The notes under the pieces are model-generated. The model did not search any database. It worked only from the letters and a program-made list of their open reading frames with translations, and was not told the DNA's origin. The position numbers and the translations under genes were made by a program. From Rathayibacter sp. VKM Ac-2879 (GTDB taxonomy: Bacteria; Actinomycetota; Actinomycetes; Actinomycetales; Microbacteriaceae): a DNA stretch of 64,000 nt. Of this stretch, positions 2 through 16,361 are shown piece by piece; position 1 is the stretch's first letter, and each line of letters opens with the position of its first letter. Location: assembly GCF_015351245.1 (NCBI RefSeq), contig NZ_JADKSO010000005.1, positions 124,001 to 188,000 on the forward strand, read 5' to 3'.

Positions 2-532
2 CGGTTCACGGCGATGGCGTTGCACTGGATGGCGGACGATCAGGGGCGCCTGGCGGCGTCCCCGCGGAAGATCTGGGCGGAGCTGTACCTCGAGGACGAG
101 TCGACATCGGAGAGCGACGTGGAGACACATCTGCTGCGCCTGGCCGAGATCGGGTATCTGTGCCTGTTCGAGGTGGCGGGCCGGCCGTACTTGGCGCTGG
201 CGAAGCTGTCGACGATCACGCACCCGAACCGGTCGGAGCTGCCCGACCCGCCCCCGCAACCCTGGGAGGCACCTGCTCATGCGCTGGGCAGAACCTTTCA
301 TGCGGGACGCATGGCTATAGGGGGAGGGGGGGAACAGGGGGAGGGAACCGGGGGAGCCAGTCCGAACACGCTCCCCGACAGCGACCTCGAGAACCTGCCG
401 TCCCCGTTCTGCGACGAGCACCAGCCGAGGGGAGCGGGCAAGGGCGTGAAGTGCCAGGCCTGCGGGGATGCCCGGATGTACCACCGCACGCTCTCCGACG
501 AGAGAGCCGCCCGACTCCACCAGCCCGACTGA
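2..532 (+). CDS. Phage-type winged-helix/zinc-ribbon protein, 5' partial
   Basis: The reading frame is open from base 2, so the true start lies left of the window; the ATG at 14 is internal (the frame reads RFTA-MALHWMADD). The N-terminal ~80 residues resemble the small helix-turn-helix proteins of actinophages, in which a short winged-helix domain follows a phrase like ALHWMADDQGR. A Gly-rich linker of about 20 residues follows, and then a C-terminal zinc-ribbon-like segment with CDEH and CQAC pairs. It heads a run of tightly packed plus-strand genes. The role is probably DNA binding in phage replication or regulation. This is family resemblance only; no specific function can be assigned. 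Confidence 0.55.
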   Translation, partial: RFTAMALHWMADDQGRLAASPRKIWAELYLEDESTSESDVETHLLRLAEIGYLCLFEVAGRPYLALAKLSTITHPNRSELPDPPPQPWEAPAHALGRTFHAGRMAIGGGGEQGEGTGGASPNTLPDSDLENLPSPFCDEHQPRGAGKGVKCQACGDARMYHRTLSDERAARLHQPD

Positions 533-2177: not shown

Positions 2178-2524
2178 GGGCAGGTCACGGTGAGGTGTCT
2201 CTCTCCGAGGAGGCGGCGCGGTGGCGGCGATCGTTCCGGGCGGAGCAGCGGCGCCATGAGGCGACGGCTGACGCTCTGCGCACCGCGAACCGGATGCTGC
2301 TCGGCCTATGGCTGCGGGGGAGGCTCCGCGACCCGTCCGACTTCGACCACAGCATCGGGCTCGACACGGTAACGGACGAACTGGGCCGGATCGACTGGCG
2401 CCTCGTGTCGTCGCGCATCGACCAGCTGATCGACGCGAAGCCGCACTACGCCGCGCCGGCCGGAGATGCCTCGTCGCCGGCGGGGACTCGTGCCATAGAG
2501 TGGTTCTCGATCGATCAGGTGTGA
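2174..2524 (+). CDS. Hypothetical protein, coupled to winged-helix gene
   Basis: A 116-residue protein whose ATG overlaps the upstream stop (ATGA). The N-terminal ~45 residues form a charged amphipathic helix rich in Arg, Glu and Ala (probable coiled coil). The rest is acidic and helical (DELGRIDWRLVSSRIDQLIDA). I recognise no family. Coupling to the winged-helix gene suggests that the two work together or are at least co-expressed. Confidence 0.5.
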   Translation: MRAGHGEVSLSEEAARWRRSFRAEQRRHEATADALRTANRMLLGLWLRGRLRDPSDFDHSIGLDTVTDELGRIDWRLVSSRIDQLIDAKPHYAAPAGDASSPAGTRAIEWFSIDQV

Positions 2525-2588
2525 GCCAGGGGCCGCCGAATCGGTCACGGAGCCCAGGGGGCAGCGCGGAAGAGGCCAGGGGCCGCCG
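2525..2588 (+). repeat. 14-bp direct repeat in a phage-type intergenic gap
   Basis: GCCAGGGGCCGCCG occurs at 2525-2538 and again, identically, at 2575-2588, 50 bp apart, in the 93-bp gap between two genes. Such iterated sites in phage intergenic DNA can be protein-binding sites. Chance is not excluded in DNA this GC-rich. Confidence 0.35.
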
Positions 2589-2617
2589 CGGGACCTTGAT
2601 CCCTCTTGGAGCTCCCA

Positions 2618-2971
2618 GTGACTCGCTCACTCCACTCGATGCACCACGCTGCGGCCGGCCCGCGCGCGTCGGAGCGCATCAACCAGGCATTCATCTCCAC
2701 CCGCCTCCACCCGGCGCCGCGCGCGGCCGCGGCGCCGGTGACGCGCAAGGACTTCACAGACCGGCTCGGACTGCCGGAGACGGCCACGAACGCCGAGGTG
2801 CTCGACGCCGTCGACAAGGCGGCCGCAAAGCGCGGCGCGTCGCGTCCGGCGTCGGAGGAGGATGCGCTCTACGCGCTCGCCTTCGGCGGCAGCGACGCGC
2901 AGACCGCCCGCTCGCAGCCGTCCGGCCAGTCGGCCGATGACGAGCTCTACGCACTTGCGTTCGGCCGATGA
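2618..2971 (+). CDS. Phage-type protein with two LYALAFG motifs
   Basis: The GTG at 2618 is chosen because a GGAG lies 6 nt upstream; the frame stays open to 2606. The product has 117 residues. A short helical domain (TRKDFTDRLGLPETATNAEVLDAVDKAA) resembles the linker helices of Mu-like phage protease/scaffold proteins. Two tandem copies of [DE]-x-LYALAFG follow, one near residue 90 and one at the extreme C-terminus. The C-terminal copy looks like a docking or capsid-addressing peptide, but that is speculative. The ATG of the next gene overlaps its stop. Confidence 0.5.
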   Translation: MTRSLHSMHHAAAGPRASERINQAFISTRLHPAPRAAAAPVTRKDFTDRLGLPETATNAEVLDAVDKAAAKRGASRPASEEDALYALAFGGSDAQTARSQPSGQSADDELYALAFGR

Positions 2972-3165
2972 GCGGCCCGAACGGCTACATCCTCGGCCGC
3001 GCCCGGTTCGAGGTCGTCGCGCCCTGCGTCGTGGTGGCGCTCGCCGATGGCGGGCAGAAGTACGTGTACCGCGGCGTGCCCGTGCCCCTGGACGCGCTGC
3101 CGTCGCATGTGGCTCACCTGCTCGATATCGGCGCGATCCGCTCGGTGAACGGAGCGGCAGCATGA
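2968..3165 (+). CDS. Small phage-type protein (65 aa)
   Basis: Starts at an ATG overlapping the previous stop. It has a short beta-rich body (YILGRARFEVVAPCVVVALADGG) and ends with a helix of the form LPSHVAHLLDIGAI. That ending resembles small actinophage proteins found among structural genes, where a DE-x-AHLLxxGAI phrase recurs. Its stop is itself overlapped by the next ATG, so three genes in a row are coupled. Function unknown. Confidence 0.5.
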   Translation: MSGPNGYILGRARFEVVAPCVVVALADGGQKYVYRGVPVPLDALPSHVAHLLDIGAIRSVNGAAA

Positions 3166-3989
3166 ATTGGACCGACCTGCACCGCTTCGCCCTGAGCTGC
3201 CGCTCCGCGGGGGTTGAGGCGCCGGCCGCTGTCGAACGCGGCCTGGCGCTCGTCGCGGCCATCAACGCCCACGAGCGGGCCGACACCGGCCCGCTGCTCA
3301 GCCTGACGGAGGACGAGGTCAAGGATCGCGTGACGCAGCTGTCGATCCGCGAGCACGACCGCGATGGCCGCGCCTCCCTGCGAGGCATGCAGCCCGGTAT
3401 CGATCACGTGACCAAGCAGCTGGCCGGCGAGGTGCGAGCGGCTGCTCTGCCGGACCTCGAGGAGATCATCGCCACGCTGCGCCCGCGTTTCGATGAGCAC
3501 GCCGCGCACTTGGTGGAGGCCGCGACGGTCTACGGCTTCACCTACGACACCACCTCCGATGAGGTGATCGACCTCGCCGACGAGCGGGCAAGCGCCGCCT
3601 GGCGTGCCGTCCCGAAGGCGTGGGGCGCGCTCGCGCCGATCGTGTCGCTGCGCATCGCCATGTCGACCCTGTTCGATGTCAGCCCCAACAAGGCGGAAGT
3701 GCGCGCGGCCTCGTTCCCGCGCACGCCGCGCAGCGAACCGACCAACTACTCGGTGTGCTTCGCGGCCGGCGACAACTGGTCACTAGACCGCGGCTACTAC
3801 GTCGAAGGAAAGACGGTCGGTCACCTCGACTGGCTCGCGCTCGCCGGGGGAGGGCTGCGACTCAACAGCCCCGACGAGGTCCGGGCCAAGCTCGACGCGC
3901 GCGGAATCGGTGCGCTGCCGGCGCCCGGGCTGCCTCAGGAGCCGGCCGACCCGCTCGACGTCGTCTACCCCTCGTTCCCGCCGTCCTGA
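3162..3989 (+). CDS. Hypothetical protein, last gene of coupled phage-type run
   Basis: A 275-residue protein starting at ATG 3162 (ATGA overlap). It is mostly helical in the first 200 residues. A moderately hydrophobic stretch WGALAPIVSLRIAMSTLF near residue 155 is probably buried rather than membrane-spanning. The Pro-rich C-terminus ends in VVYPSFPPS. No family is recognised. A perfect 17-bp hairpin directly after the stop suggests that the transcription unit ends here. Confidence 0.5.
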   Translation: MNWTDLHRFALSCRSAGVEAPAAVERGLALVAAINAHERADTGPLLSLTEDEVKDRVTQLSIREHDRDGRASLRGMQPGIDHVTKQLAGEVRAAALPDLEEIIATLRPRFDEHAAHLVEAATVYGFTYDTTSDEVIDLADERASAAWRAVPKAWGALAPIVSLRIAMSTLFDVSPNKAEVRAASFPRTPRSEPTNYSVCFAAGDNWSLDRGYYVEGKTVGHLDWLALAGGGLRLNSPDEVRAKLDARGIGALPAPGLPQEPADPLDVVYPSFPPS

Positions 3990-3990
3990 C

Positions 3991-4034
3991 GCAGCACCCC
4001 GATCGCCAGAAGATCCAGGCGATCGGGGTGCTGC
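3991..4034 (+). terminator. Perfect 17-bp hairpin after phage-type operon
   Basis: GCAGCACCCCGATCGCC (3991-4007) is perfectly complementary to 4018-4034 across a 10-nt loop. It starts 2 nt after the stop codon at 3989. There is no T tract downstream, which is common for actinobacterial terminators. It could act from either strand. Confidence 0.7.
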
Positions 4035-4136
4035 CCACCTCCCGCGCCGGTCCTGGCGCTTCTCTCTCCACGCGAATCCGGCCCTCACGCGAATTGATTC
4101 ACGCGAAATCACTCCAATTGAACGGATCAGTCACCG

Positions 4137-4655
4137 ATGTCTCGACGACGCAAGCCCTGCGGCACCTACGCCGCCTACCGCAGGCACCTGCAGGACGGAT
4201 CGCCTGTCGACGCAGCCTGCCAACGCGCGCAGCGCGACCACGACGCAGGCGTCCGAAACAGGCCGTTCGAGCACGCGCAGCGGCGCCAGCTCGGACCGAC
4301 GACAGCGACGCCTCCCACGCCGCCCCCCGCAGCGCCGGCCGCGGGTGGATCAGGGGTGCAAACCTCGCACATCCCCACGCCCGCGCCGGTCTCTGACCTT
4401 GCACTCCTCGCGCGGGGCGGGTGGGACGAGATGAGTCCGCCAGAGCGCTACGCGCGCTGTCTAGTCGATATGAGCATCTTCGTGCACCGCGAAGATCTTT
4501 TCGCTGTCGTCGACCTCGCCTGGGAGCTCGACGACATCCTCGACGACTGGTGCCACGCCGTGGCCGACCAGATGCGAGCGGGCGGGCTTGAGGTGCCGGA
4601 CTGGTTGGTCGAGCGCCTTGGGGAGGCGGACGCACGCGAGCCGCGGTCAGACTGA
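4137..4655 (+). CDS. Protein with N-terminal CGT-x-x-AYxRHL zinc-binding-like motif
   Basis: A 172-residue protein from ATG 4137. The N-terminus (KPCGTYAAYRRHLQDGSPVDAAC...HD) matches a recurring actinobacterial/actinophage motif in which C-G-T, Y-x-R-H and a later Cys probably bind zinc. A Pro/Ala-rich linker (residues 55-75) leads to an acidic helical C-terminal domain (residues 95-165) containing DLAWELDDILDDWCHAVADQM. The motif family is known only from hypothetical mobile-element proteins. It directly precedes the toxin gene. Confidence 0.5.
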   Translation: MSRRRKPCGTYAAYRRHLQDGSPVDAACQRAQRDHDAGVRNRPFEHAQRRQLGPTTATPPTPPPAAPAAGGSGVQTSHIPTPAPVSDLALLARGGWDEMSPPERYARCLVDMSIFVHREDLFAVVDLAWELDDILDDWCHAVADQMRAGGLEVPDWLVERLGEADAREPRSD

Positions 4656-4724
4656 GGCGGCTCGGCAGCGTAATCGTCAGTTCGAGCTCGCGGCTAGAAC
4701 GCGCGCTGTGTCGGAAGTGCTCGC

Positions 4725-4730
4725 TAGCAT
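4725..4730 (+). promoter_or_regulatory. -10 box for leaderless toxin transcript
   Basis: TAGCAT lies exactly 6 nt before the ATG at 4737, the spacing at which transcription would begin on the start codon. The same arrangement recurs before several other genes in this window, which strengthens the reading. Confidence 0.5.
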
Positions 4731-4736
4731 GCGCGG

Positions 4737-5228
4737 ATGGGGAATCAGTGGCGCTCGCCGTTGGAGTCGCGATGCACGACGCCGCGGGCCGAGCCGATGA
4801 CATGGCTCGACTACGTCGACGACGGCGCGCCATCGGTCGCCGCCTTCGCGTCCTGGTTGTCTCAGCTGCACCCCTCCGTTCGGCGCGACCTCGTCGTCAA
4901 GATCGACGCGCTCAGGGCGCTCGCGGCAGCCGGCGACATCGTCATCTCCGGAGACGACGCAGTCGACCAGCTCGCCGCCATCCGTGCCGACCCGGATCTC
5001 TACGAGCTGCGGTGGACGCTGCTGACGAAAGTGGTGAGGCAGTACCACGGCGAACCACCCGAGGACGGCGACCTGCTGGTCGCGCTGCACATGCACATCA
5101 AGGGAGACACGACGCTGCTGCGCCGTGGAGGCCAGCGCCGAATAAGCAACCAGCCGGCCGAAATCGCTCGCGCTGTTCGCCGCTACCGCGACGGCCACGA
5201 GTCAGCATGGACCACTGACAGGGGGTGA
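4737..5228 (+). CDS. HigB/RelE-superfamily (Gp49-like) toxin
   Basis: A 163-residue protein. Residues ~22-155 follow the pattern of phage Gp49-like HigB toxins: an N-terminal WLDYVDDG strand, a helical part, a central LYELRW strand, then ALHMHIKG and NQPAEIARAVRRYRDG. In this family these correspond to the core strands and the C-terminal helix of an mRNA-cutting RelE fold. The start at 4737 is favoured by the leaderless -10 box; ATG 4800 is an alternative. It is followed 45 bp later by an XRE protein, the usual toxin-antitoxin order for HigBA. Toxicity and target are inferred. Confidence 0.7.
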   Translation: MGNQWRSPLESRCTTPRAEPMTWLDYVDDGAPSVAAFASWLSQLHPSVRRDLVVKIDALRALAAAGDIVISGDDAVDQLAAIRADPDLYELRWTLLTKVVRQYHGEPPEDGDLLVALHMHIKGDTTLLRRGGQRRISNQPAEIARAVRRYRDGHESAWTTDRG

Positions 5229-5239
5229 GACAACCCGTA

Positions 5240-5267
5240 CACAACCCCATGGTTGTGCCCCTATCAT
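5240..5267 (+). promoter_or_regulatory. Operator-like palindrome and -10 box before antitoxin
   Basis: CACAACC (5240-5246) and GGTTGTG (5251-5257) form a perfect 7-bp inverted repeat around CCAT. A further ACAACCC half-site sits at 5230-5236. TATCAT at 5262-5267 lies exactly 6 nt before the antitoxin ATG. This predicts a second, leaderless promoter inside the module, with the repeat over its -35 region. The XRE protein itself is the natural candidate to bind it. Confidence 0.55.
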
Positions 5268-5273
5268 CCATAC

Positions 5274-5738
5274 ATGCCTAGCCTCAGCGAGCTTTTTGCC
5301 GACGTCCGACGCTCCGCCGGGTACCGCAGCGCCAGAGAGATGGCAGACGGCGACTACCGCCTGATCTTCGACCTCGTAAAGGTCCGCAAGCGACGAGGCC
5401 TGCGGCAGCGCGACGTCGCCGAGGCGCTCGGCGTCTCCCAGCAGGCCGTCTCGAAGATCGAGCACTACGACTCGGATCCGCGCCTCTCCACCATCCGCAT
5501 GTACGCCACCGCCATCGGCGCCGTCGTCAGCCATGATGTGCGCATGGACGTCGACCAGCCCGTCGCTGTGCCGTCGACGACGGTCGATCACCGCGACCGG
5601 TTCACGTTTGTGGGTTTCGCCTTCGACTCTCATGACCGTTCGACGCCGTTCCTCCCCGGCGTCTACCTCACCAATGGTCTTGATGGCCGTCCCGAGTGGG
5701 CTCGCGAGAGCGACGCCGAACGCGAGCTGGTTGGCTGA
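5274..5738 (+). CDS. XRE-family antitoxin with C-terminal extension
   Basis: A 154-residue protein. The ATG at 5274 is preferred over the ATG at 5253 because of the TATCAT box 6 nt upstream. Residues ~28-83 form a classic XRE helix-turn-helix (RQRDVAEALGVSQQAVSKIEHYD). Residues 90-154 are an extension absent from minimal HigA antitoxins, with exposed aromatic and hydrophobic residues (RFTFVGFAFD, PFLPGVYL, PEWARE). In toxin-antitoxin-chaperone systems such an extension is the chaperone-addiction region. The stop overlaps the next ATG (ATGA/TGATG). It probably neutralises the upstream toxin and represses the operon. Confidence 0.72.
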   Translation: MPSLSELFADVRRSAGYRSAREMADGDYRLIFDLVKVRKRRGLRQRDVAEALGVSQQAVSKIEHYDSDPRLSTIRMYATAIGAVVSHDVRMDVDQPVAVPSTTVDHRDRFTFVGFAFDSHDRSTPFLPGVYLTNGLDGRPEWARESDAERELVG

Positions 5739-6160
5739 TGGATCGTCGCTTCGCTGTCGACAACGTCGACGTAATCCAAGTGCGCGCATCGATTGGCGGC
5801 AGCGAGCCGCACCTGCAGTACAACGTGACCTACGAGCCCAAGTCCCGCCCCTCGGAGCTGGGTAGCTTCTATCCCGTGGTCGCGTCCCTGCACGCTGCCG
5901 ATGAGGACGGCTGGGGAGATGTGAGTATCGGGGCCTTTCTCTTGCCGCTCGGAGAGGTGCCAGACGGCATCCCGCTCAGCGAGGTGCTTGCTGACGACGC
6001 AGCGATCGAGACTCTTTACGACATCGCACGCACGCACTTGCGACACGTCCTTGCCACGGTTGGTTGCCTCACCCAGTTGCCGAAGCAGGCTCCCGAGGCT
6101 GAATTCTCGGAGCAGGACGGCGTCGTACAGGAAACCGAGCCTGACGAACCGACGAGCTGA
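5738..6160 (+). CDS. SecB-like chaperone of a putative TAC module
   Basis: A 140-residue protein, translationally coupled to the antitoxin (TGATG). The pattern fits a SecB-like fold: paired N-terminal strands (VDVIQVRASI, LQYNVTYEP), a further strand pair, and a helix IETLYDIARTHLRHVLATVG followed by LPKQAPEAEF. The last part corresponds in layout to the C-terminal helix and LPxxxP turn of SecB proteins. Position decides the call: toxin, antitoxin with extension, then chaperone is the order of the Mycobacterium tuberculosis higB1-higA1-secB system. Overall identity to SecB looks low, so this rests on pattern and context. The alternative is an unrelated TA-associated protein. Confidence 0.5.
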   Translation: MDRRFAVDNVDVIQVRASIGGSEPHLQYNVTYEPKSRPSELGSFYPVVASLHAADEDGWGDVSIGAFLLPLGEVPDGIPLSEVLADDAAIETLYDIARTHLRHVLATVGCLTQLPKQAPEAEFSEQDGVVQETEPDEPTS

Positions 6161-6249
6161 CAGAACGAGGTCTCGACCGGCGGCGAGCGCATCGAAGAGG
6201 AAGCGCAGAACCTGCCCTCGCGCGTGGCGGCCCGAACGACCTTCCTAGC

Positions 6250-6255
6250 TACGGT
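6250..6255 (+). promoter_or_regulatory. -10 box for leaderless excisionase-like gene
   Basis: TACGGT ends 6 nt before the GTG at 6262. This favours 6262 over the in-frame GTG at 6256, which would leave no spacer after the -10 box. Confidence 0.45.
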
Positions 6256-6261
6256 GTGCCC

Positions 6262-6624
6262 GTGAGCTCGAGCATTGAAGACATCATCCGGAAAGTCGTG
6301 CGCGAGGAAATCCAGCGCACCGTGCCTGCGATCGTCGCGGGCGTGGTGGCGCGCGTGCAAGATCTTCAACCGCCTCCGCCCTCGCCAGTTTCTATCCCGC
6401 TCCATCTCACGGTCAACGACGCGGCCCCGATCGCTCTCCGACACCCGGAGACGATCAGAGGCGCCCTCCGGGACGGCAGCCTGCACGGCGCTCAACCCTC
6501 GAGGAGAGCGCCTTGGCGCATTCGGCGTGACTGCCTCGTTAGCTGGATCGAAGGACGCCCCTGCCAGCATCAGGAGGCGGAGAAGTCAGCACGACGCCGA
6601 CCCGAGAGACGGAGCCGAGCGTGA
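6262..6624 (+). CDS. Excisionase-like helix-turn-helix protein
   Basis: A 120-residue protein. The N-terminal 35 residues form a helix (SSSIEDIIRKVVREEIQRTVPAIVAGVVARV). The C-terminal half reads LTVNDAAPIALRHPETIRGALRDGSLHGAQ...WRIRRDCLVSWIEG, the standard MerR/Xis-type DNA-binding fold of excisionases from integrative elements and phages. It would bend DNA at attachment sites or regulate the element. No integrase is visible within 1 kb, so it may be a control protein rather than a true recombination directionality factor. The next gene overlaps it (GTGATG). Confidence 0.65.
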   Translation: MSSSIEDIIRKVVREEIQRTVPAIVAGVVARVQDLQPPPPSPVSIPLHLTVNDAAPIALRHPETIRGALRDGSLHGAQPSRRAPWRIRRDCLVSWIEGRPCQHQEAEKSARRRPERRSRA

Positions 6625-6821
6625 TGCCGACGCGAGAGGAGTGCATCAAGCGAGCGGCCGGCATCCTCGCGCGCGCGGCGCTGCGGATAGAACAGGAAGC
6701 GTCAGACGCGCGCATAGCCGCTCAGTCCGCAGCCAGTCCGCAAGAAGTCCGCAACGGGGCGATTCCCGGCAACATCAGCCAACAACTGGATCCGCGTAAT
6801 GACGCGGATCTCAGCTGTTGA
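6621..6821 (+). CDS. Small hypothetical protein after excisionase-like gene
   Basis: A 66-residue protein (GTG 6621 overlapping the upstream stop, or ATG 6624). An N-terminal helix (TREECIKRAAGILARAALRIEQEAS) leads into a low-complexity tail whose last 14 codons coincide with a long DNA hairpin (6780-6820). Coupling to the excisionase-like gene is the only clue to its role. The tail may be coding only because the hairpin happens to be open in this frame. Confidence 0.45.
   Translation: MMPTREECIKRAAGILARAALRIEQEASDARIAAQSAASPQEVRNGAIPGNISQQLDPRNDADLSC
6780..6820 (+). terminator. Long two-part inverted repeat at end of accessory block
   Basis: GATCCGCGT (6789-6797) pairs perfectly with ACGCGGATC (6802-6810) over a 4-nt loop. 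The flanking CAACAACTG (6780-6788) pairs with CAGCTGTTG (6812-6820) except for one mismatch, giving a stem of about 18 bp with a 1-nt bulge. It overlaps the end of the last accessory gene and has no T tract. It could be a terminator or part of a recombination site at the edge of the element. Confidence 0.5.
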
Positions 6822-7120
6822 CAGGACAGGTCAACACCAGGGCCAACGTTCCGCTTCAACGTGTAGGTACCGCGCCAAGCACGATGCCTCCGTCGCCGTC
6901 ATCACAGGGTGCCAGTGCCGCGAGACAGAGGCTGTGCGGGCCGCGAGCGATCGTCGGGCAGGGTGAGGTGATCCGGGGTCTCGGCAGCGAGGGTGATCCG
7001 AGCCAGGATTCGGGCGATGGCGGCGAAGAGGACCCCGGCGAAGAGGACCCCGGCGAAGAGGACCCCGGCGAAGAGGACCCGGGCGCAGAGGACCCGGGCT
7101 GGGACCCTGACGAGGAGTGA
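6818..7120 (+). CDS. Doubtful ORF with acidic EEDPG repeat tail
   Basis: An open frame from TTG 6818 overlaps the previous stop. It would encode 100 residues ending in five units of the EEDPG type and DPDEE. Third-position GC is not as high as in neighbouring real genes, and there is no clear ribosome-binding site. An acidic tail protein is possible, but the frame may be open only because of the repeat. Treat as unproven. Confidence 0.22.
   Translation: MTGQVNTRANVPLQRVGTAPSTMPPSPSSQGASAARQRLCGPRAIVGQGEVIRGLGSEGDPSQDSGDGGEEDPGEEDPGEEDPGEEDPGAEDPGWDPDEE
7025..7099 (+). repeat. 15-bp tandem repeat, five units
   Basis: GAAGAGGACCCCGGC is repeated at 7025-7039, 7040-7054 and 7055-7069. Two variants follow at 7070-7084 (one change) and 7085-7099 (two changes). 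The unit length keeps frame. The plus strand would read EEDPG repeats and one minus-strand frame reads AGVLF repeats. Decay increases toward the right end. Confidence 0.85.
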
Positions 7121-7794: not shown

Positions 7795-8733
7795 GTGCCC
7801 GCCACTCCCGACTCCGTCCCCACCTCTGAGCTGCTGCGCACCCTCACGCCCGACGACGCCCGAGATCTGGTCGTCGTCGACGAGGATGACGACGACCCCG
7901 TGCTGCTGCGACCCGACGGCAGCGTGATCGACACGTGGCGCGAGGGCTACCCGTACGACGAGCGCATGTCGCGCGACGAGTACGAGGCGGGCAAGCGCCT
8001 CCTCCAGATCGAGCTGCTCAAGCTGCAGAACTGGATCAAGAAGCACGGTCGACGCTTGGTCGTCGTCTTCGAGGGACGCGACGCCGCGGGCAAAGGCGGC
8101 ACGATCAAGCGCTTCACCGAGCACCTCAACCCGCGCGGGGCGCGCGTCGTCGCCCTTGAGAAGCCGACCGAGCGGGAGGCGGGGCAGTGGTACTTCCAGC
8201 GCTACGTCTCACACCTGCCCGCGGCGGGTGAGATCGTGCTCTTTGACCGCTCGTGGTACAACCGCGCCGGGGTCGAGCAGGTGATGGGGTTCTGCACCCC
8301 GGAGCAATACGACGAGTTCATCCGACAGACGCCGCTGTTCGAGCGGATGCTCGTCGGCGACGGCATCGACCTCGTGAAACTGTGGTTCTCGGTGTCGGCC
8401 GAGGAACAGCGGACCCGCTTCACGATCCGCATGATCGATCCGGTTCGCCAGTGGAAGCTCTCGCCGATGGACCTCGCCTCGCTCGACAAATGGGACGACT
8501 ACACGGCGGCGAAGGAGGCGATGCTCGCGGCGACCGACACCGATGACGCGCCGTGGACCATCGTGAAGAGCAACGACAAGAAGCGCGCCCGGCTCGAGGC
8601 CATGCGTCACGTGCTGAGCCTGTACGCCTACGACGGCCGGGACGACGAGGTGGTCGGGACGACAGGGGCCGACCCGTTGATCGTCGGGTCGGCCGCCGAG
8701 GTCTACGAGCGCGGCGAGCACACGCCACACTGA
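7795..8733 (+). CDS. ppk2: Polyphosphate kinase 2
   Basis: A 312-residue cytosolic enzyme that transfers phosphate between polyphosphate and nucleotides. The core PPK2 domain (from ~residue 60 on) has the Walker A-like GRDAAGKGG at 94-102, the Walker B-like FDRSWYNRAGVE at 150-161, and the lid/arginine region EEQRTRFTIR. The acidic N-terminal 40 residues (VVDEDDDD) are variable in the family. GTG 7795 is chosen for the -10 box 6 nt upstream. Length and motifs fit the one-domain short PPK2 class. The preferred direction (ADP or GDP phosphorylation versus polyphosphate synthesis) cannot be told from the sequence. It marks the start of ordinary chromosomal DNA. Confidence 0.93.
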   Translation: MPATPDSVPTSELLRTLTPDDARDLVVVDEDDDDPVLLRPDGSVIDTWREGYPYDERMSRDEYEAGKRLLQIELLKLQNWIKKHGRRLVVVFEGRDAAGKGGTIKRFTEHLNPRGARVVALEKPTEREAGQWYFQRYVSHLPAAGEIVLFDRSWYNRAGVEQVMGFCTPEQYDEFIRQTPLFERMLVGDGIDLVKLWFSVSAEEQRTRFTIRMIDPVRQWKLSPMDLASLDKWDDYTAAKEAMLAATDTDDAPWTIVKSNDKKRARLEAMRHVLSLYAYDGRDDEVVGTTGADPLIVGSAAEVYERGEHTPH

Positions 8734-9527: not shown

Positions 9528-10835
9528 CGGAGGCAGCTCCTCATCGAGCAGCCACGCGTCGAGCAGCTCGTCGACCCGGTCGCCCGCGAGCTCCGTGCAG
9601 AGCTCGCGGAACTCTTCGTCGGTCACGGCGGCGAAGGCGTGGCGCGCTGTCCACGTGCGCAGCAGCCCGAAGAACGGCTCGTCGCCCATGCTGAGCCGCA
9701 GCGCGTGCAGGGTGAGCGCCCCGCGCTTGTAGACGCGGTCGTCGAACAGGGCGACGGGGCCAGGATCGCCGACGACGAGGTCTTGCGGCTGCCGACGCAG
9801 AAGCGCGTAGTGGCGGCGGGCGCACGCGTCTGCGGAGGCCCGGCCCGACTCCTCCGACCACAGCCACTCGGCGTAGCAGGCGAAGCCCTCATTGAGCCAG
9901 ATGTGTCGCCAGTGGGCGATGCCCACGCTGTTGCCGAACCACTGGTGCGCGAGCTCGTGCGCGATGAGCCGCTCCGAACCGCCGGCGCCGTCGGCGTGAT
10001 TGGCGCCGAACACGGCCATGCCCTGTGCCTCGAGCGGAATCTCGAGCGTGTCGGAGGTGACGACGACGCTGTACTGCTCGAAGGGGTACGGGCCGAAGAG
10101 GCGCACGAACAGCGCGATCATCGAGGCGAGCGGGGCGAAGTCGCGGGCGACCCGCGCGGCGAGCTCGGCCGGTCGCGCGAGGGTGACCGAGACTCCCGAG
10201 AGCTGCCGGTGCTCGAGGGCATAGCGGCCGATCTGCACCGAGGCGAGGTACGTCGACGTCGGCTCGCTCTGCTCGTACACCCAGGTGCGACGACCCGATC
10301 GCGCCGCCGACTCGATCAGCACGCCGTTCGCGAGGACGCTATAGCCCTCCTCCGCGGTGATGCGGAAGCGGAACGGCGCCTTGTCGGCGACATCGTCGTT
10401 GCAGGGGAACCAGGTCGATGCTCCCGACGGTTGCGAGGCGACGAGAACGCCGTCGGCAAGCTCCTCCCAGCCCAGCTCACCCCAGTGGCTCGCGCGGGGG
10501 GCGGGATGCCCGCCGTACTCGATCTCGACGACGACCGAGGAGCCGGCAGCGAGCGGCTCGGCCGGGGTGACCCGCAGCTTGTGGGCGGTCTGCTCGACCC
10601 GCGCCCGACGCCCCTCCACTTTCACCCGTGAGACGCGCAGCCGCGACAGGTCGAGCGAGAACCGCCGCAGCGGTTGCAGAGCGGTGATGCGGAGGCTCGC
10701 GTGCGCCGCGAGGCGATTGGTCGCCACGCGGTAGTCGAGGTCGAGGTCGTACGACTCGACCCGATAGCCGGTGTTGCCGATCTCGGGGAGGTAGGGGTCG
10801 CCCGCGGTCTCGAGTCCCGTCTGCGTCGGGCTCAC
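9510..10835 (-). CDS. M1-family zinc aminopeptidase
   Basis: A 441-residue protein beginning at GTG 10835, which overlaps the stop of the upstream synthetase gene (GTGA), so the two are translationally coupled. The N-terminal beta domain (YRVESYDLDLDYRV...) is followed by the exopeptidase signature EAQGMAVFG and the zinc site HELAHQWFG with the second Glu (NEGF) 18 residues on. It lacks the large C-terminal domain of PepN. No signal peptide is visible, so it is probably cytosolic. Coupling to a Pls-like synthetase suggests hydrolysis or trimming of the poly-amino acid, as zinc aminopeptidases do in epsilon-polylysine producers. Confidence 0.88.
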   Translation of the reverse strand: MSPTQTGLETAGDPYLPEIGNTGYRVESYDLDLDYRVATNRLAAHASLRITALQPLRRFSLDLSRLRVSRVKVEGRRARVEQTAHKLRVTPAEPLAAGSSVVVEIEYGGHPAPRASHWGELGWEELADGVLVASQPSGASTWFPCNDDVADKAPFRFRITAEEGYSVLANGVLIESAARSGRRTWVYEQSEPTSTYLASVQIGRYALEHRQLSGVSVTLARPAELAARVARDFAPLASMIALFVRLFGPYPFEQYSVVVTSDTLEIPLEAQGMAVFGANHADGAGGSERLIAHELAHQWFGNSVGIAHWRHIWLNEGFACYAEWLWSEESGRASADACARRHYALLRRQPQDLVVGDPGPVALFDDRVYKRGALTLHALRLSMGDEPFFGLLRTWTARHAFAAVTDEEFRELCTELAGDRVDELLDAWLLDEELPPLPPAR

Positions 10836-13800
10836 GCGACGGGGGCGTGGTAGTCGGCGATCCGCACGTCGCGCCACGGTCCGATCGGGTTGCCGCTCCA
10901 CCGGCTGCCGGCGGGCACGAGCTCGCCGCGCATCACGAGGGAGGCGGGTCCGACGGTGCCGTGCTGCGCGATGCGCGCGGCGGGAAGGATGACGCTGTGC
11001 GGCCCGAGGGTCGCTCCCGCATCGAGGCTCACGAGGTCCATGCTCATGATTCGATCATGGAACAGGTGGGTCTGCACGACGCACCCGCGATTGACCGCCG
11101 CTCCGTCGCCCAGGACCACCAGATCGGCCTCGGGGAGCCAATAGCTCTCGCACCACACGCCTCGGCCGATCCGTGCGCCGAGACTGCGCAGCCACCACAC
11201 GAGTGCGGGAGTGCCGGCGGCCGCATGCGCGAACCAGGGGGCCGCGACCATCTCGGTGAAGGTGTCGGCGAGCTCGCTACGCCACACGAACGACGACCAC
11301 AGCGGCTGCTCGCTGGGCCGCACCCGCTGGATTAGGATCCACTTCGCCGCCGTGGAGGCCGCCGCCGCGACGGCCCCGGCCACGAGGAGGACGACCCCAC
11401 CCAGAAGCACGGCGACGAGGGCGCCGAACGTCTCCTCGAGCGCGAGCAGGCTCACCGCGACGCCCAGGCCGAGTGCGACCGAGACCACGACAGGCACGAA
11501 GCGACCGAGCTCCCAGGCGATGCGGGCGGCGCGCAGGCGGGTGGGTGGGCGGAAAGTGAGCGACGCCTCCGACTCGATCACGGTCCGCCGCAGGCGGACG
11601 GGCGGCGACCCGAGCCACGACGACCCCGGCTTCGACGTGCGCGGGGCCGAGGAGAGCACCGCCACGAGGCCGCCGCTCGGCACGGTATGGCCCGGCGCTG
11701 CCATGCCCGAATTGCCGAGGAACGCGCGCTCGCCGATCTCCGCGCGGGCGAGCCGCATCCAGCCGCCGCCGAGGGCGTAGGAGGCGACGAGGGTGTCGTC
11801 GGCGAGGAACGCTCCGTCGCGGATCGTGGTCATCGCCGGGAGCAGCAGCACCGTTGAGGCTTCGACATCGCGTCCGACGCGCGCGCCGAGCATCCGCAGC
11901 CAGACGGGAGTGAACAGGCCGGAGTAGAGGGGGAAGAGCAGAGTGCGCGCCTGATCGAGCAGACGCTCGGTCGACCAGACCTGCCAGCCGATCCGCCCCC
12001 GCACCGGGTGGGTGCCGGGTTCGACGCCGAGCCCGAGGAGGCGTACCAGCGCGACGACCATCGCCGCGAGCACGATCCCCGTGACGGCCACGGCCGGCAC
12101 GAGAGCCGCGAACGCGCGTGGGACGGCCTCGCCGAGGTCGACCGAGCCTTGCGTCGCGATGGCGACGACTCCCGTCCCCGCGCCGAAGGCGAGTACGGGC
12201 ACGGCGGCCAGCCCCACCGCCGAGAGGCCGTATGCCCACACCCATGCCGTGCGCCGGGGAGGACGCTCGGACGGGAACCCGAAACTCGCCTTGCCGAGGC
12301 GCTGTGCGGGTGAGCCTCCCCAGCGCTGCCCCGCGGGGACTCGGCCGAACACCGCGGAGCCCGGCTCGATCTGGGCGTTCTTGCCGATGCGCGTGCCGGG
12401 CAACAGCGTGCTCCGTGCGCCGACCGTGCTGCCGGCCCCGACGCGGACGGCGCCGACCCGCACGATGTCTCCGTCGATCCAGTAGCCGGAGAGGTCGACC
12501 TCGGGCTCGATCGCCGCGCCGCGCCCGAGCGTGAGCATGCCGGTGAGCGGAGGGAGCGAGTGCAGGTCGACGTCGTCGGCGATGCGAGCGCCGAGAGCGC
12601 GGGCGTAGTAGGCGACCCACGGTGCACCGGCCAGGCTGACCGCTCCGAGCTGGAACGCGATCTGCTCGGCGAGCCAGAGCCGCAGGTGCACCCCGCCGCC
12701 GCGGGGATGGTCGCCCGCGCGCACACCCCGGAGCAACGAGCGCGCGGCGAGAACGGTGAAGCCCATCCTCCCGAACGGCGTGCAGAACAGGGCGAAGGCG
12801 GGTATGAGCGCGAGCAGTGGCGCGGTCGGCAGCCAGTCGAAGCCGGGCAGGAGGTCGAGGAGGGCCGTCACAGTGAGGAGGGCCGTGAGCCAGCGAGCGC
12901 TGCCGAGCACGAGCAGGGGGGCGCCGAGGAGCGTCTGCAGCACCTGCATGCGGCGTGGGACGGGCGGGATCACGTGCCCGGACGCCTCCACGGTGCTCGT
13001 CGCCCGGCTCGCGATCTCGGCCGAGAGGGAGGCGAGCCGCGGGTGCGCGTAAACGTCGGCGACCGTGAACTCGGGGTCGCGCTCACGGATGCGGGCGACG
13101 AGCTGCGCCGCGGCGAGCGAGCCTCCACCGAGGTCGAAGAAGTTGGCGCGCTCGTCGACAGGGACGCCGAGAACCTCGCGCCAGAGCCCGGCCAGCCACG
13201 CGGTCTCGGGGTCGAGCGTCGGATCCTCCGCTGCCGTCTCGGCCAGAGGCCAGGGCAGCGCGGCCCGGTCGACCTTGCCGGAGGTGCGGGTGGGCAGCTC
13301 GTCGACGACGGCGAGCAGGGGGACGAGCGCGGCCGGCAGCTCCTCGCGCAGGCGCGCCAGAGCGGCGTCGCGGTCGAGCTCGCGACCGTCGGCGAGCGCG
13401 AGATAGCCGACGAGGACCTGGTTGCCGGCGCCCGTGGTGCGCACGGCGGCGGCGGCCCCAGAGACTCCCGGGAGCCCCTGGAGGGCTGCCTCGACCTCGC
13501 CGAGCTCGATCCGCCGGCCGCCGAGCTTCACCTGGTCGTCGGCACGGCCCTGGAACACCAGGCCGGCACTCTCGAAGCGCACCAGGTCGCCCGAGCGGTA
13601 GGCCCGCTCCCAGCCCAGCTGCGGAGCCGGCGCGTACTTCTCGGCGTCCTTCGCCGCGTCGAGATACCGCGCGAGTCCGACGCCGCCGATCACCAGCTCG
13701 CCCACCTCGCCCTCTGCGACGCGCTGCCCCTCGGCGTCGACCACGGCGAGACGCCAACCGTCGAGCGGCAGCCCGATACGGACGGGAGGCGGTCCGCCGA

Positions 13801-14785
13801 GGGGAGCGGCGCACGCGACGACGGTGGCCTCGGTGGGGCCGTAGGTGTTCCACACCTCGCGGCCCTCGACCGCGAGTCGTTCACCGAGCTCGGGCGGGCA
13901 CGCCTCGCCGCCGAAGATGAGCAGGCGCACGTTCTCGAGCGACTCCGCGGGCCAGAGCGCAGCGAGCGTGGGCACCGTCGAGACGACGGTGATGCCGTGC
14001 GTGATCAGCCACGGCCCGAGGTCCATGCCGCTACGCACGAGCGAGCGGGGGGCCGGCACGAGGCAGGCGCCGTGCCGCCACGCGAGCCACATCTCCTCGC
14101 AGGAGGCGTCAAACGCGACCGAGAGCCCGGCGAGCACGCGGTCGCCCGGCCCGAGCGGCTCGTCCTGGAGGAACAGTCGCGCTTCCGCGTCGACGAACGC
14201 GGCCGCCGAGCGGTGGCTGACGGCGACGCCCTTCGGGGTGCCGGTCGAGCCGGAGGTGAAGATGATCCAGGCGTCGTCCTCGAGCGACGGCGGCTGCACG
14301 AGCGGGATCGACGCGGTACTGGGGTGCGGCGCCGAGCCCGAGAAGAGACGGGCGGGAGCGGCGTCGCCGTCACTGCGCTCGAAGCGGCCGGACCCGGTGA
14401 TCACTCCCCGCACGGCCGCCTCCCCGAACACCAGCTGCGCGCGCTCCTCGGGATCGTCGGCGTCGACGGGCACGTAGGCGGCGCCGGCGGCGAGGATGGC
14501 GAGGATCGCGATGTAGAGCTCGCGCGAGCCGCTCGCCATCCGCACGCCCACCCGGTCGCCGCGAGAGACTCCCGCCGCGGTGAGCTCGCCCGCGGCGCCG
14601 ACGACGCGTGCGAGGAGCTCCCGATAGCTGAGGGCGCCGGCCGGATCCTCGAGTGCGGAGGCGTCGGGATGCTGCGCGGCGCTCGCGCGGAGGACGTCGA
14701 TGAGGGTCCGAGGAGGCGTCGCGAGCGCGCCCGCATCGAGGACGTCCTGCGGATGCGTGCTCTTGCCGGGGGCCGTCGCCGTCAC
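10832..14785 (-). CDS. Pls/PosA-like NRPS: adenylation-thiolation-membrane protein
   Basis: A 1317-residue protein, almost exactly the size of the epsilon-poly-L-lysine synthetase Pls. GTG 14785 has GGAG 7 nt upstream. Residues ~25-510 form an adenylation domain (FTSGSTGTPKG at 176-186, NTYGPTE, YRSGDL, GRADDQVKLGGRR, catalytic Lys504 in TSGK). A thiolation domain follows with DLGGGS (Ser556). Residues ~610-1317 contain about six membrane segments and three soluble segments with acyltransferase/left-handed-helix character. In Pls these tandem C-terminal domains make the isopeptide polymer iteratively. The pocket has Asp225-Ala226 and Glu229, the Glu being compatible with a basic amino acid; this is inference. 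Product: probably a homo-poly(amino acid). Confidence 0.88.
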   Translation of the reverse strand: MTATAPGKSTHPQDVLDAGALATPPRTLIDVLRASAAQHPDASALEDPAGALSYRELLARVVGAAGELTAAGVSRGDRVGVRMASGSRELYIAILAILAAGAAYVPVDADDPEERAQLVFGEAAVRGVITGSGRFERSDGDAAPARLFSGSAPHPSTASIPLVQPPSLEDDAWIIFTSGSTGTPKGVAVSHRSAAAFVDAEARLFLQDEPLGPGDRVLAGLSVAFDASCEEMWLAWRHGACLVPAPRSLVRSGMDLGPWLITHGITVVSTVPTLAALWPAESLENVRLLIFGGEACPPELGERLAVEGREVWNTYGPTEATVVACAAPLGGPPPVRIGLPLDGWRLAVVDAEGQRVAEGEVGELVIGGVGLARYLDAAKDAEKYAPAPQLGWERAYRSGDLVRFESAGLVFQGRADDQVKLGGRRIELGEVEAALQGLPGVSGAAAAVRTTGAGNQVLVGYLALADGRELDRDAALARLREELPAALVPLLAVVDELPTRTSGKVDRAALPWPLAETAAEDPTLDPETAWLAGLWREVLGVPVDERANFFDLGGGSLAAAQLVARIRERDPEFTVADVYAHPRLASLSAEIASRATSTVEASGHVIPPVPRRMQVLQTLLGAPLLVLGSARWLTALLTVTALLDLLPGFDWLPTAPLLALIPAFALFCTPFGRMGFTVLAARSLLRGVRAGDHPRGGGVHLRLWLAEQIAFQLGAVSLAGAPWVAYYARALGARIADDVDLHSLPPLTGMLTLGRGAAIEPEVDLSGYWIDGDIVRVGAVRVGAGSTVGARSTLLPGTRIGKNAQIEPGSAVFGRVPAGQRWGGSPAQRLGKASFGFPSERPPRRTAWVWAYGLSAVGLAAVPVLAFGAGTGVVAIATQGSVDLGEAVPRAFAALVPAVAVTGIVLAAMVVALVRLLGLGVEPGTHPVRGRIGWQVWSTERLLDQARTLLFPLYSGLFTPVWLRMLGARVGRDVEASTVLLLPAMTTIRDGAFLADDTLVASYALGGGWMRLARAEIGERAFLGNSGMAAPGHTVPSGGLVAVLSSAPRTSKPGSSWLGSPPVRLRRTVIESEASLTFRPPTRLRAARIAWELGRFVPVVVSVALGLGVAVSLLALEETFGALVAVLLGGVVLLVAGAVAAAASTAAKWILIQRVRPSEQPLWSSFVWRSELADTFTEMVAAPWFAHAAAGTPALVWWLRSLGARIGRGVWCESYWLPEADLVVLGDGAAVNRGCVVQTHLFHDRIMSMDLVSLDAGATLGPHSVILPAARIAQHGTVGPASLVMRGELVPAGSRWSGNPIGPWRDVRIADYHAPVA

Positions 14786-14885
14786 GTCTCGTCTCCGTCC
14801 CGATCGCGCGAGGGGGAGTGCCGCGACCGGGGCGACACCGTAGGGCGCTGCGGTGACGCGGAGGTGAACAGCGGGTGCCGAGCGC

Positions 14886-16361
14886 TCAGTGCCCTGCGGG
14901 CACGGGCGCATCGGATTCCGCGGGCCGCCGGACGAAGAAGCCCGCGACGATGGCGGCCGTCGCGATGACCGCACCGCAGAGGAACGCCGCGTGGATGCCT
15001 CCGGCCGCCGCGGTGATCTGGTCGGCGCCCTCGCCCGCGAGCGATGCCGAGCGGAGGGAGAGGACCGTGACGAACAGGGCCGTGCCGGCGGCGCCTCCGA
15101 GCTGCTGCACCGTGCCGATCACGGCGCTGCCATGCGAGTAGAGAGCGGGGCGGACCGAGCCGAGCCCCGCGGTGAACAGCGGGGTGAACATGAACGCGAG
15201 GCCCAGGCTCAGCACCACGTGCAGCGCGAGCACGAACCACGAGGAGGAGGACCCGTCGAGCGTCGTGAGTCCCCACAGTGCCGCGGCGACGACGACCGAG
15301 CCCGGCACGAGCAACACTCGCGGACCGAAGCGGTCGTAGGCGCGGCCGACGAACGGCGCGAGCAGACCCATCAGCAGGCCTCCGGGGAGGAGTAGCAGGC
15401 CCGTCTGCAACGGCGTGAGCCCGAGCACGGTCTGCGTGTACAGCGGCAGGAGGATGAGCGTGCCGAAGAGCGCGGCCATGCTGACCGCCATCATCACGAT
15501 GACGACGGTGAAGTTGGCTGAGGCGAAGGTGCGCAGATCGAGCAGGGCGCGATCGGTTCGCTGCAGCACGAGCTGGCGCGTGATGAAGCCGCCGAGACCG
15601 AGCGCCGCGACGACGAACGGCACCCACGGCGCCACGACTGCCGCGCCGCCCTCGCCGAGGCTGCTGAGACCGTAGACGAGGCCGCCGAAGCCGAACACCG
15701 AGAGGACGACCGAGAGGGAGTCGATCGGGATCGACCGCGGCTCGGTCACGTTCTCGACCCGTCGAAGGCCGAGGGCGAGCGCGGCGAGGGCGATGGGCAG
15801 CACGATCCAGAACATCCAGCGCCAGCCGAGCACGTCGAGGATCACGCCCGAGATCGTCGGGCCGACTGCCGGGGCCACCGAGATGACGATCGAGATGTTG
15901 CCCATCATCCGCCCGCGGATGGCCGGGGGAACGAGGGTCATCACCGTCGTCATGAGCAGCGGCATCATGATCGCGGTGCCGCCCGCCTGCACGACGCGCG
16001 CGGCGAGGAGCACGGGGAAGGTGGGTGCGAGCGCCGCCGTGAGGGTTCCCACGCTGAAGAGCGTCATCGCGGCGGCGAAGAGCGTGCGGGTGTGCAGGCG
16101 TTGGATCAGGTAGCCCGTGATCGGGATCACCACCGCCATCGTCAGCATGAACGCCGTCGAGAGCCACTGGCCGACGTGCGCCTCGACCCCGAAGTCGCGC
16201 ATGAGATCGGGCAACGCCACGCTCATGATCGTCTCGTTGAGGATCACGACGAACGCCGACACCAGCAGAAGGCTGATGACGAGGCGGCTGCGCGGCTCGA
16301 GGCTCTCGGCGCTCTCTGCGGCGCGGGCCGGGCGGGTCTCGGGAAGGGTGCGCTCGGTCAC
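14886..16361 (-). CDS. MFS exporter, DHA2 (14-TM) family
   Basis: A 491-residue membrane protein with about 14 hydrophobic segments. Family motifs present: the early segment VVILNETIMSVALPDLMRDFG, the loop-2/3 region GYLIQRLHTRTLF, and the antiporter motif C-like GPTISGVILDVLGWRWMFWI. GTG 16361 has GGAG 7 nt upstream, immediately behind the stop of a 41-codon leader ORF. It lies 100 bp ahead of the Pls-like gene on the same strand, so it may export the product or protect against it. A general drug efflux role is the alternative. The leader ORF points to antibiotic- or translation-responsive control. Confidence 0.85.
   Translation of the reverse strand: MTERTLPETRPARAAESAESLEPRSRLVISLLLVSAFVVILNETIMSVALPDLMRDFGVEAHVGQWLSTAFMLTMAVVIPITGYLIQRLHTRTLFAAAMTLFSVGTLTAALAPTFPVLLAARVVQAGGTAIMMPLLMTTVMTLVPPAIRGRMMGNISIVISVAPAVGPTISGVILDVLGWRWMFWIVLPIALAALALGLRRVENVTEPRSIPIDSLSVVLSVFGFGGLVYGLSSLGEGGAAVVAPWVPFVVAALGLGGFITRQLVLQRTDRALLDLRTFASANFTVVIVMMAVSMAALFGTLILLPLYTQTVLGLTPLQTGLLLLPGGLLMGLLAPFVGRAYDRFGPRVLLVPGSVVVAAALWGLTTLDGSSSSWFVLALHVVLSLGLAFMFTPLFTAGLGSVRPALYSHGSAVIGTVQQLGGAAGTALFVTVLSLRSASLAGEGADQITAAAGGIHAAFLCGAVIATAAIVAGFFVRRPAESDAPVPAGH

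Follow-up and report, generated by a model that had tools for sequence, protein, structure and literature searches.

The 64,000-nucleotide stretch of Rathayibacter sp. VKM Ac-2879 analysed here (contig NZ_JADKSO010000005.1, positions 124,001 to 188,000; hereafter the window) carries three open reading frames (ORFs) tightly packed on the + strand, which encode a putative toxin (P0001), a helix-turn-helix (HTH) protein of the XRE type as its presumed antitoxin (P0002) and a third protein (P0003). The original prediction had read this trio as a toxin-antitoxin-chaperone (TAC) module, and all three ORFs were recovered in the ORF list of the window exactly where it had placed them. The toxin and antitoxin genes are 45 nt apart and the ATG of the third gene overlaps the antitoxin TGA by 1 nt, as TGATG, an arrangement which appears to fit the tight operon expected of a TAC system. 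GC content at third codon positions is 0.84, 0.82 and 0.76 for the toxin, antitoxin and third gene, respectively, and the third frame remained open in only 43 of 2000 dinucleotide shuffles.

Table 1. Features of the predicted module and of the adjoining phage-like block (positions within the window).
Feature	Position	Strand	Remarks
Phage replication-initiation-like gene	14-532	+	phrog_2149, E 1.8e-8
-10-like TAGCAT, possible leaderless promoter	4725-4730	+	6 nt before toxin ATG, read from sequence
Putative toxin gene, P0001	4737-5228	+	163 aa
Internal promoter-like site TACACA-18-TATCAT	5238-5267	+	-10 ends 6 nt before antitoxin ATG
Operator-like perfect palindrome ACAACC-CCAT-GGTTGT	5241-5256		toxin-antitoxin gap
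Putative antitoxin gene (XRE/HTH), P0002	5274-5738	+	starts with ATG; 154 aa; HTH_3 (Pfam)
Antitoxin C-terminal tail, candidate chaperone-addiction region	5520-5735	+	72 residues after HTH
WARESDAER within antitoxin tail	5697-5723	+	comparable with motifs of PMC6377645
Third gene, P0003	5738-6160	+	140 aa; predicted antitoxin partner
Excisionase-like HTH_17 gene, adjoins module downstream	6259-6624	+	E 1.9e-5, 25.3 bits, cut-off 27

The HTH_3 domain of the antitoxin covers residues 36 to 82 (Pfam, E 5e-11), and the protein is 30-41% identical to 10 of its 11 aligned relatives and 23% identical to the one of locus L022. The domain is followed by a tail of 72 residues terminating in WARESDAERELVG, and the C-terminal extension that had been claimed for the XRE protein is thus present. 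When the loci of the toxin family were compared, tail length was found to follow the third gene: tails are of 41-72 residues in 20/20 loci with a third gene, the window tail being at the top of this range, and of 11-30 residues in the four loci that have none. The two groups are completely separated (Mann-Whitney p = 0.002), a value which is not corrected for kinship and overstates the independence of the rows, because these share descent (L002 and L003 closely) and the toxin of L006 is split. In the two-gene relatives (L006, L017, L018 and L021), the longest frame on the same strand that begins anywhere between 60 nt upstream and 150 nt downstream of the antitoxin stop spans 60, 164, 41 and 28 codons, respectively, and the 164-codon frame of L017 was judged spurious by eye. 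These two-gene versions of the window toxin differ from the tripartite ones in that the antitoxin tail is short and a convincing third gene is missing. The L006 locus (Glutamicibacter, 4001-4774) consists of a toxin split over two frames and a 93-aa antitoxin without a long tail or third gene, and its toxin-antitoxin gap carries the palindrome GCAACTTATAAGTTGC.

In the TAC system of M. tuberculosis, HigB1-HigA1-SecB-TA (Rv1955-Rv1956-Rv1957), the chaperone-addiction (ChAD) region of the antitoxin holds the stretches 108WHRLSSYR115 and 137WARHISVR144, in which W and R are key contacts (PMC6377645). ChAD regions differ from one another in length and sequence (PMC5105189). The W-A-R stretch of the window tail, WARESDAER, is comparable with 137WARHISVR144 (PMC6377645), a likeness that is suggestive only. 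A W followed by an R within 13 residues was found in 13/15 other tails of loci with a third gene, L015 and L046 being the exceptions, and in 0/4 tails of loci without, although so short a motif is likelier to occur in long tails; the L022 tail has a W with no R after it.

The order toxin, tailed HTH antitoxin, third gene is the one known from M. tuberculosis, as had been claimed, and it recurs in loci of the toxin family on actinobacterial plasmids, chromosomes and virus contigs. The third protein was considered SecB-like in 15 of the 20 tripartite loci, a label assigned by visual inspection of alignments and ORF lists and tested for the group only, and not in five (the window, L022, L045, L046 and L047), L045 being assigned to these odd third proteins by exclusion. 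A profile of 18 SecB-like proteins, made of the 15 from toxin-family loci, that of L034 and those of two Rhodococcus loci, had a single match in the Protein Data Bank (PDB), chain C of 5MTW, which is the SecB-like chaperone Rv1957 (E 5.1e-8); an earlier profile of 12 proteins had matched Rv1957 with an E value of 3.3e-7. All 18 share invariant F, P and R residues in a stretch of the type V-x-M-x-x-[FY]-P-[YF]-L-R-E. Taken singly, the sister proteins fall below the cut-off of the Pfam SecB model (PF02556), five of the ten scanned matching it at E 0.013-0.15, in agreement with a review in which 33 TAC chaperones fell outside PF02556 (PMC4257090). Since the group matches Rv1957, the sister modules of the toxin family look like TAC modules.

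Several loci were set aside before these counts: L019, a 36-residue frame, and L008-L013, which repeat places or plasmids already counted and include two flagged with an internal stop. L005, a near copy of L002, was kept in the SecB-like profile and is absent from the tail comparison and from the toxin tree described below, which also leaves out L003, a near copy, and L006, whose toxin is divided over two frames. Neither comparison nor tree includes L034 or the Rhodococcus loci, which have other toxins. HTH matches at L035 and L036 were dropped as generic HTH genes by eye.

The toxin itself is not matched by any family in Pfam, PADLOC or NCBIfam, and its best PHROGs match is only at E 0.038. 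Its relatives include 16 Curtobacterium and Clavibacter plasmid records (36-38% identity, E 4e-17 to 3e-18) and further loci in Microbacterium, Clavibacter and Glutamicibacter contigs and in virus contigs, of which L032 was recovered through its third gene. They occur in at least 11 of 299 genomes of one family, at least 4 of 186 genomes of an order and at least 4 of 345 of a class, all counts being lower bounds, as the genome draws partly overlap and score only some candidates per genome. A search of the phylum with the toxin alignment retrieved at least 1 of 396 genomes, an already known one, and a search of one order none of 293. Single-sequence searches of virus contigs with P0001 and P0002, and of phages with P0001, retrieved no relative.

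In the toxin alignment, E90, R101, Y103, E106 and K122 are invariant in 22/22 rows and R92 is conserved in 18/22. The proposed catalytic residues of the M. tuberculosis toxin HigB-TAC include E66, R68, R77 and K95 (PMC9098466), to which E90, R92, R101 and K122 appear to correspond in order, with the same arginine-arginine spacing of nine (R92/R101 and R68/R77); the column at the position of N73 (T97 in the window toxin) is variable. A profile of 14 toxins run against 177,635 PDB sequences had four matches, two of which are HigB1 at non-significant E values of 0.58 and 0.66, below two proteasome chains at 0.32 and 0.34; the HigB1 alignment places E66, R68 and R77 in register. On account of the conserved residues in order and of this register, the toxin is predicted to work like a HigB/RelE toxin. 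It had been assigned to the Gp49 branch, and this identity was not borne out: the Pfam Gp49 model (PF05973) does not recognise P0001, and a single one of 14 family members reaches it, below its cut-off, at E 0.084. A comparison of the toxin family with a small Gp49 set gave P = 0.0078 with a probability of 5%. The toxin is not filed under Gp49 because the Pfam test failed. Neither can a Gp49 toxin be opposed to the M. tuberculosis one, as HigB1 is itself listed under gp49 (PMC11980606). By contrast, the toxin of L034 (IMGVR_UViG_3300031132_000234, 2303-3596), a virus-contig locus with a gp49 toxin, a tailed HTH protein and a SecB-like third gene, matches Pfam gp49 at E 3.7e-7 and HigB1 at E 0.019-0.025 and belongs to a different toxin branch. 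By eye, the L034 module sits between integrase-like and transposase-like genes.

The toxin-antitoxin gap contains a perfect palindrome, which is unique in the window at up to one mismatch (shuffle mean 0.07) and overlaps the only sigma70-like site listed between 4500 and 6400 (shuffle mean 0.2). The same palindrome lies in the corresponding gap of L001, L004, L032 and L049 and, with one arm altered to ACAACT, in that of L002, L007 and L014, so that the operator is common to seven of the eight other rows of the window toxin clade; in L003 it is degenerate, and in the more distant loci it was not seen. Upstream of the toxin, the TAGCAT hexamer was not listed by the consensus promoter scan; an equivalent spacing, TACGAT-6-ATG, is found in L001 and L002. 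These elements may represent two leaderless promoters, the inner one yielding antitoxin and third protein without toxin under the control of the antitoxin.

A TAC-type system at the window locus is well supported, and we put at roughly 0.6 the probability that the trio is a tripartite toxin-antitoxin system working like a TAC module, in which P0003 would occupy the position of the chaperone. The TAC claim of the original prediction stands as regards the tripartite operon in a phage-like block, the tail length that tracks the third gene and the TAC-type chaperone usual in the family; it lacks support as regards the SecB likeness of the window third protein, for which tests against SecB were negative or weak. 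Judging from its residues, the toxin would cleave mRNA in a ribosome-dependent manner, as RelE/HigB-type toxins do. The HTH protein would neutralise it and repress its own promoter through the ACAACC-N4-GGTTGT operator, whose overlap with the inner promoter would place the toxin-free transcript of antitoxin and third gene under the same control. The link between tail and third gene suggests that the 72-residue tail makes the antitoxin reliant on the third protein both to fold and to escape proteolysis. By analogy with E. coli TAC systems, the third protein might be titrated, under stress or by a phage structural protein, upon which the antitoxin would be lost and the toxin would halt translation.

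The anti-phage systems CmdTAC and HigBAC of E. coli likewise consist of three genes, theirs with a chaperone-guarded antitoxin (PMC11618068, PMC11980606). In CmdTAC the T4 capsid protein draws the chaperone away (PMC11618068) and in HigBAC a lambda tail protein does so (PMC11980606). CmdT is an ADP-ribosyltransferase, unlike what is predicted for the window toxin, and the chaperones of both systems are described as a SecB homologue or SecB-like. The window module is like the M. tuberculosis system in its gene order, in the toxin residues that line up with HigB-TAC and in sister-locus third proteins that match Rv1957 as a profile; it is unlike it in a toxin missed by the Gp49 model and a third protein not recognisable as SecB. 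With classical two-gene systems of the HigBA type (gp49/HTH) it shares RelE-type residues and a toxin that precedes the HTH antitoxin. Antitoxin families named for TAC systems include HigA, MqsA and HicB (PMC5105189), with CmdTAC in addition.

A number of results weigh against a TAC module in the window, and most of them concern P0003. Besides the shared descent behind the tail comparison, the toxin lacks a Pfam match, a profile of 11 toxins missed HigB1 in the PDB (its sole match being a designed protein, E 0.0077), and the palindrome was not seen in the gap of L015, the locus with the nearest toxin. P0003 has no match in Pfam, where the SecB cut-off (PF02556) was not reached, nor in PADLOC, PHROGs or NCBIfam; its best PDB match, at E 1.2, is not meaningful, and single-sequence searches of genome contigs, viral contigs, plasmids and phages found no relative (best E 3). 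The profile comparison with SecB that had been proposed as a check gave, against 12 SecB-like proteins, an hhalign probability of only 0.3%. A hidden Markov model (HMM) of 13 SecB-like proteins left P0003 unscored, yet scored 753 of 1000 shuffles, so the SecB-like pattern that had been seen in the third protein was not confirmed. A 32-residue profile of the SecB helix scored P0003 at p = 0.22; over the five odd third proteins the combined p is 0.053. Global alignments of P0003 with 14 SecB-like proteins averaged z = 0.94, 5/14 being at p < 0.05. A four-row profile of odd proteins that includes P0003 gave P = 0.067 (probability 0.8%) against the SecB-like proteins and had no PDB match.

Other comparisons hint that the odd third proteins are remotely related to SecB. 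The best window of the helix profile on P0003 is at residues 81-112, where the SecB helix is expected, and one of the five odd proteins, L046, does score with this profile (p = 0.009). A five-row profile of the odd proteins gave P = 0.01 (probability 4%) against the SecB-like ones, for which control profiles of the HTH and of the toxin gave 0.5 and 0.68, respectively, and the five-row and four-row profiles both aligned the same helix with the SecB-like proteins. Searches with the L046 third protein and with P0010 found no relative outside their own genomes, nor did one with P0003 and L046 paired.

The toxin tree (22 rows) brings a conflict with the third gene to light. The window toxin pairs with that of L015, a SecB-carrying locus (support 99/95), within a clade of nine rows (85/84, not starred), the other eight of which are all SecB-like carriers; the toxins of L022, L046 and L047 are placed elsewhere, on long and weakly supported branches. 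With stars on just 3 of the 19 inner branches, the placement of distant rows is not to be pressed, and the tree program warned that L022 and L047 are possibly joined falsely. A SecB-carrying toxin clade together with an odd P0003 implies either extreme drift or an exchange of the third gene. In the latter case the toxin-antitoxin pair would come from a SecB-carrying lineage, its chaperone having been replaced by an unrelated family, that of the third proteins of the window, L022, L046 and L047, which would bind the antitoxin tail in its own way. We hold this possible, with the odds clearly against it. P0003 does exceed its shuffles in alignment with L022 (z 4.7, p 0.001; pairwise BLASTP E 0.002), L046 (z 4.6, p 0.002; E 0.004) and L047 (z 3.0, p 0.005). 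It is on average poor against the SecB-like proteins among whose carriers its toxin is nested, and three SecB-like proteins aligned with the others as a benchmark averaged z = 8.5, 12.8 and 14.4, so that plain divergence within the clade would have been unusually fast. On the other hand, two SecB-like proteins, those of L001 (z 4.5) and L044 (z 3.4), score comparably with P0003. The replacement family would comprise only four proteins, with no signal between L022 and L047 (z -0.08), and the L045 protein does not join P0003 (z 0.75). The helix profile also stands against exchange, by its offset on P0003 and its L046 score. It is correspondingly doubtful that TAC modules can swap their chaperone, the same toxin-antitoxin chassis and operator becoming addicted anew to a second, non-SecB family through a rewritten tail, which would give the system a dedicated chaperone of a new kind.

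An ordinary two-gene toxin-antitoxin pair, with P0003 behind it as unrelated cargo of the phage-like element, is an improbable reading of the locus. No sequence match indicates a function for P0003, as would suit such cargo, but the antitoxin and third gene overlap at stop and start, long tails occur where a third gene is present but not in the four two-gene loci, and a third gene stands at the same place in the other eight rows of the toxin clade. An immunity or regulation cassette of a phage, in which the HTH protein would repress the element and the proteins on either side would be regulators, would suit the phage-like neighbours and the operator-promoter ahead of the HTH gene, but it is very improbable given the conserved RelE-type residues and the plasmid relatives without an annotated phage structural or repressor gene in the stretches shown, a point qualified by the tyrosine recombinase adjoining L001.

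There is a fair chance that P0003 represents a second kind of TAC partner. If P0003 is not a SecB, chaperone addiction would not be confined to a single fold; if it is, it would show how far the fold can drift with its partner retained. A toxin family that escapes Pfam and often comes with a TAC-type chaperone would extend the range of toxins known to be chaperone-addicted, and the two- and three-gene versions of one toxin offer a natural comparison for the origin of addiction. Among the open-access papers listed, none describes the toxin family or its link to a chaperone, judged by titles and abstract openings, with subscription papers mostly outside this coverage.

The genes to the left of the module are phage-like: beside the replication-initiation-like gene they include a DNA-binding family (phrog_1568, E 2.4e-10) and a weak match to a head scaffold (phrog_4708, E 6.6e-4). 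This setting fits a candidate role in defence or in the stability of the element. From about 7.8 kb onward the sampled genes are ordinary chromosomal ones, an aminotransferase, a QRPTase, a glycine dehydrogenase and an arginyl-tRNA synthetase being among the ten proteins scanned; the gene at 7795-8733 is presumably a PPK2-type kinase. The best match of the arginyl-tRNA synthetase, at 64%, is in a genome drawn from the phylum of a Microbacterium genome, which points to a probable actinobacterial host.

Some further observations were made in the related loci and in the window. Both Clavibacter plasmids, those of L002 and L003, have a Fic family gene (5722-6558 and 5710-6291, respectively) downstream of the module. 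Five Rhodococcus plasmid loci (L023-L027, e.g. L025:2063-3426) encode an 88-aa protein, a protein of 190-215 aa in which the HTH is central, and a third, SecB-like one. The first of these is annotated in four of the five (not in L027) and looks HicA-like by eye, with no Pfam match; TniQ and TniB genes follow the locus in two of the five (L023 and L024). Within the window, the N-terminus of the ORF upstream of the toxin (4137-4655) weakly matches a WhiB-like phage regulator (phrog_12112, E 4e-4), and a small acidic ORF with tandem EEDPG repeats (6818-7120) lies at the right-hand end of this block of phage-like genes. A 1380-aa ORF on the - strand (10832-14974) shows, by eye, an adenylation domain and a carrier domain, with membrane and hexapeptide-repeat regions after them, and in this it resembles a poly-amino-acid synthetase.

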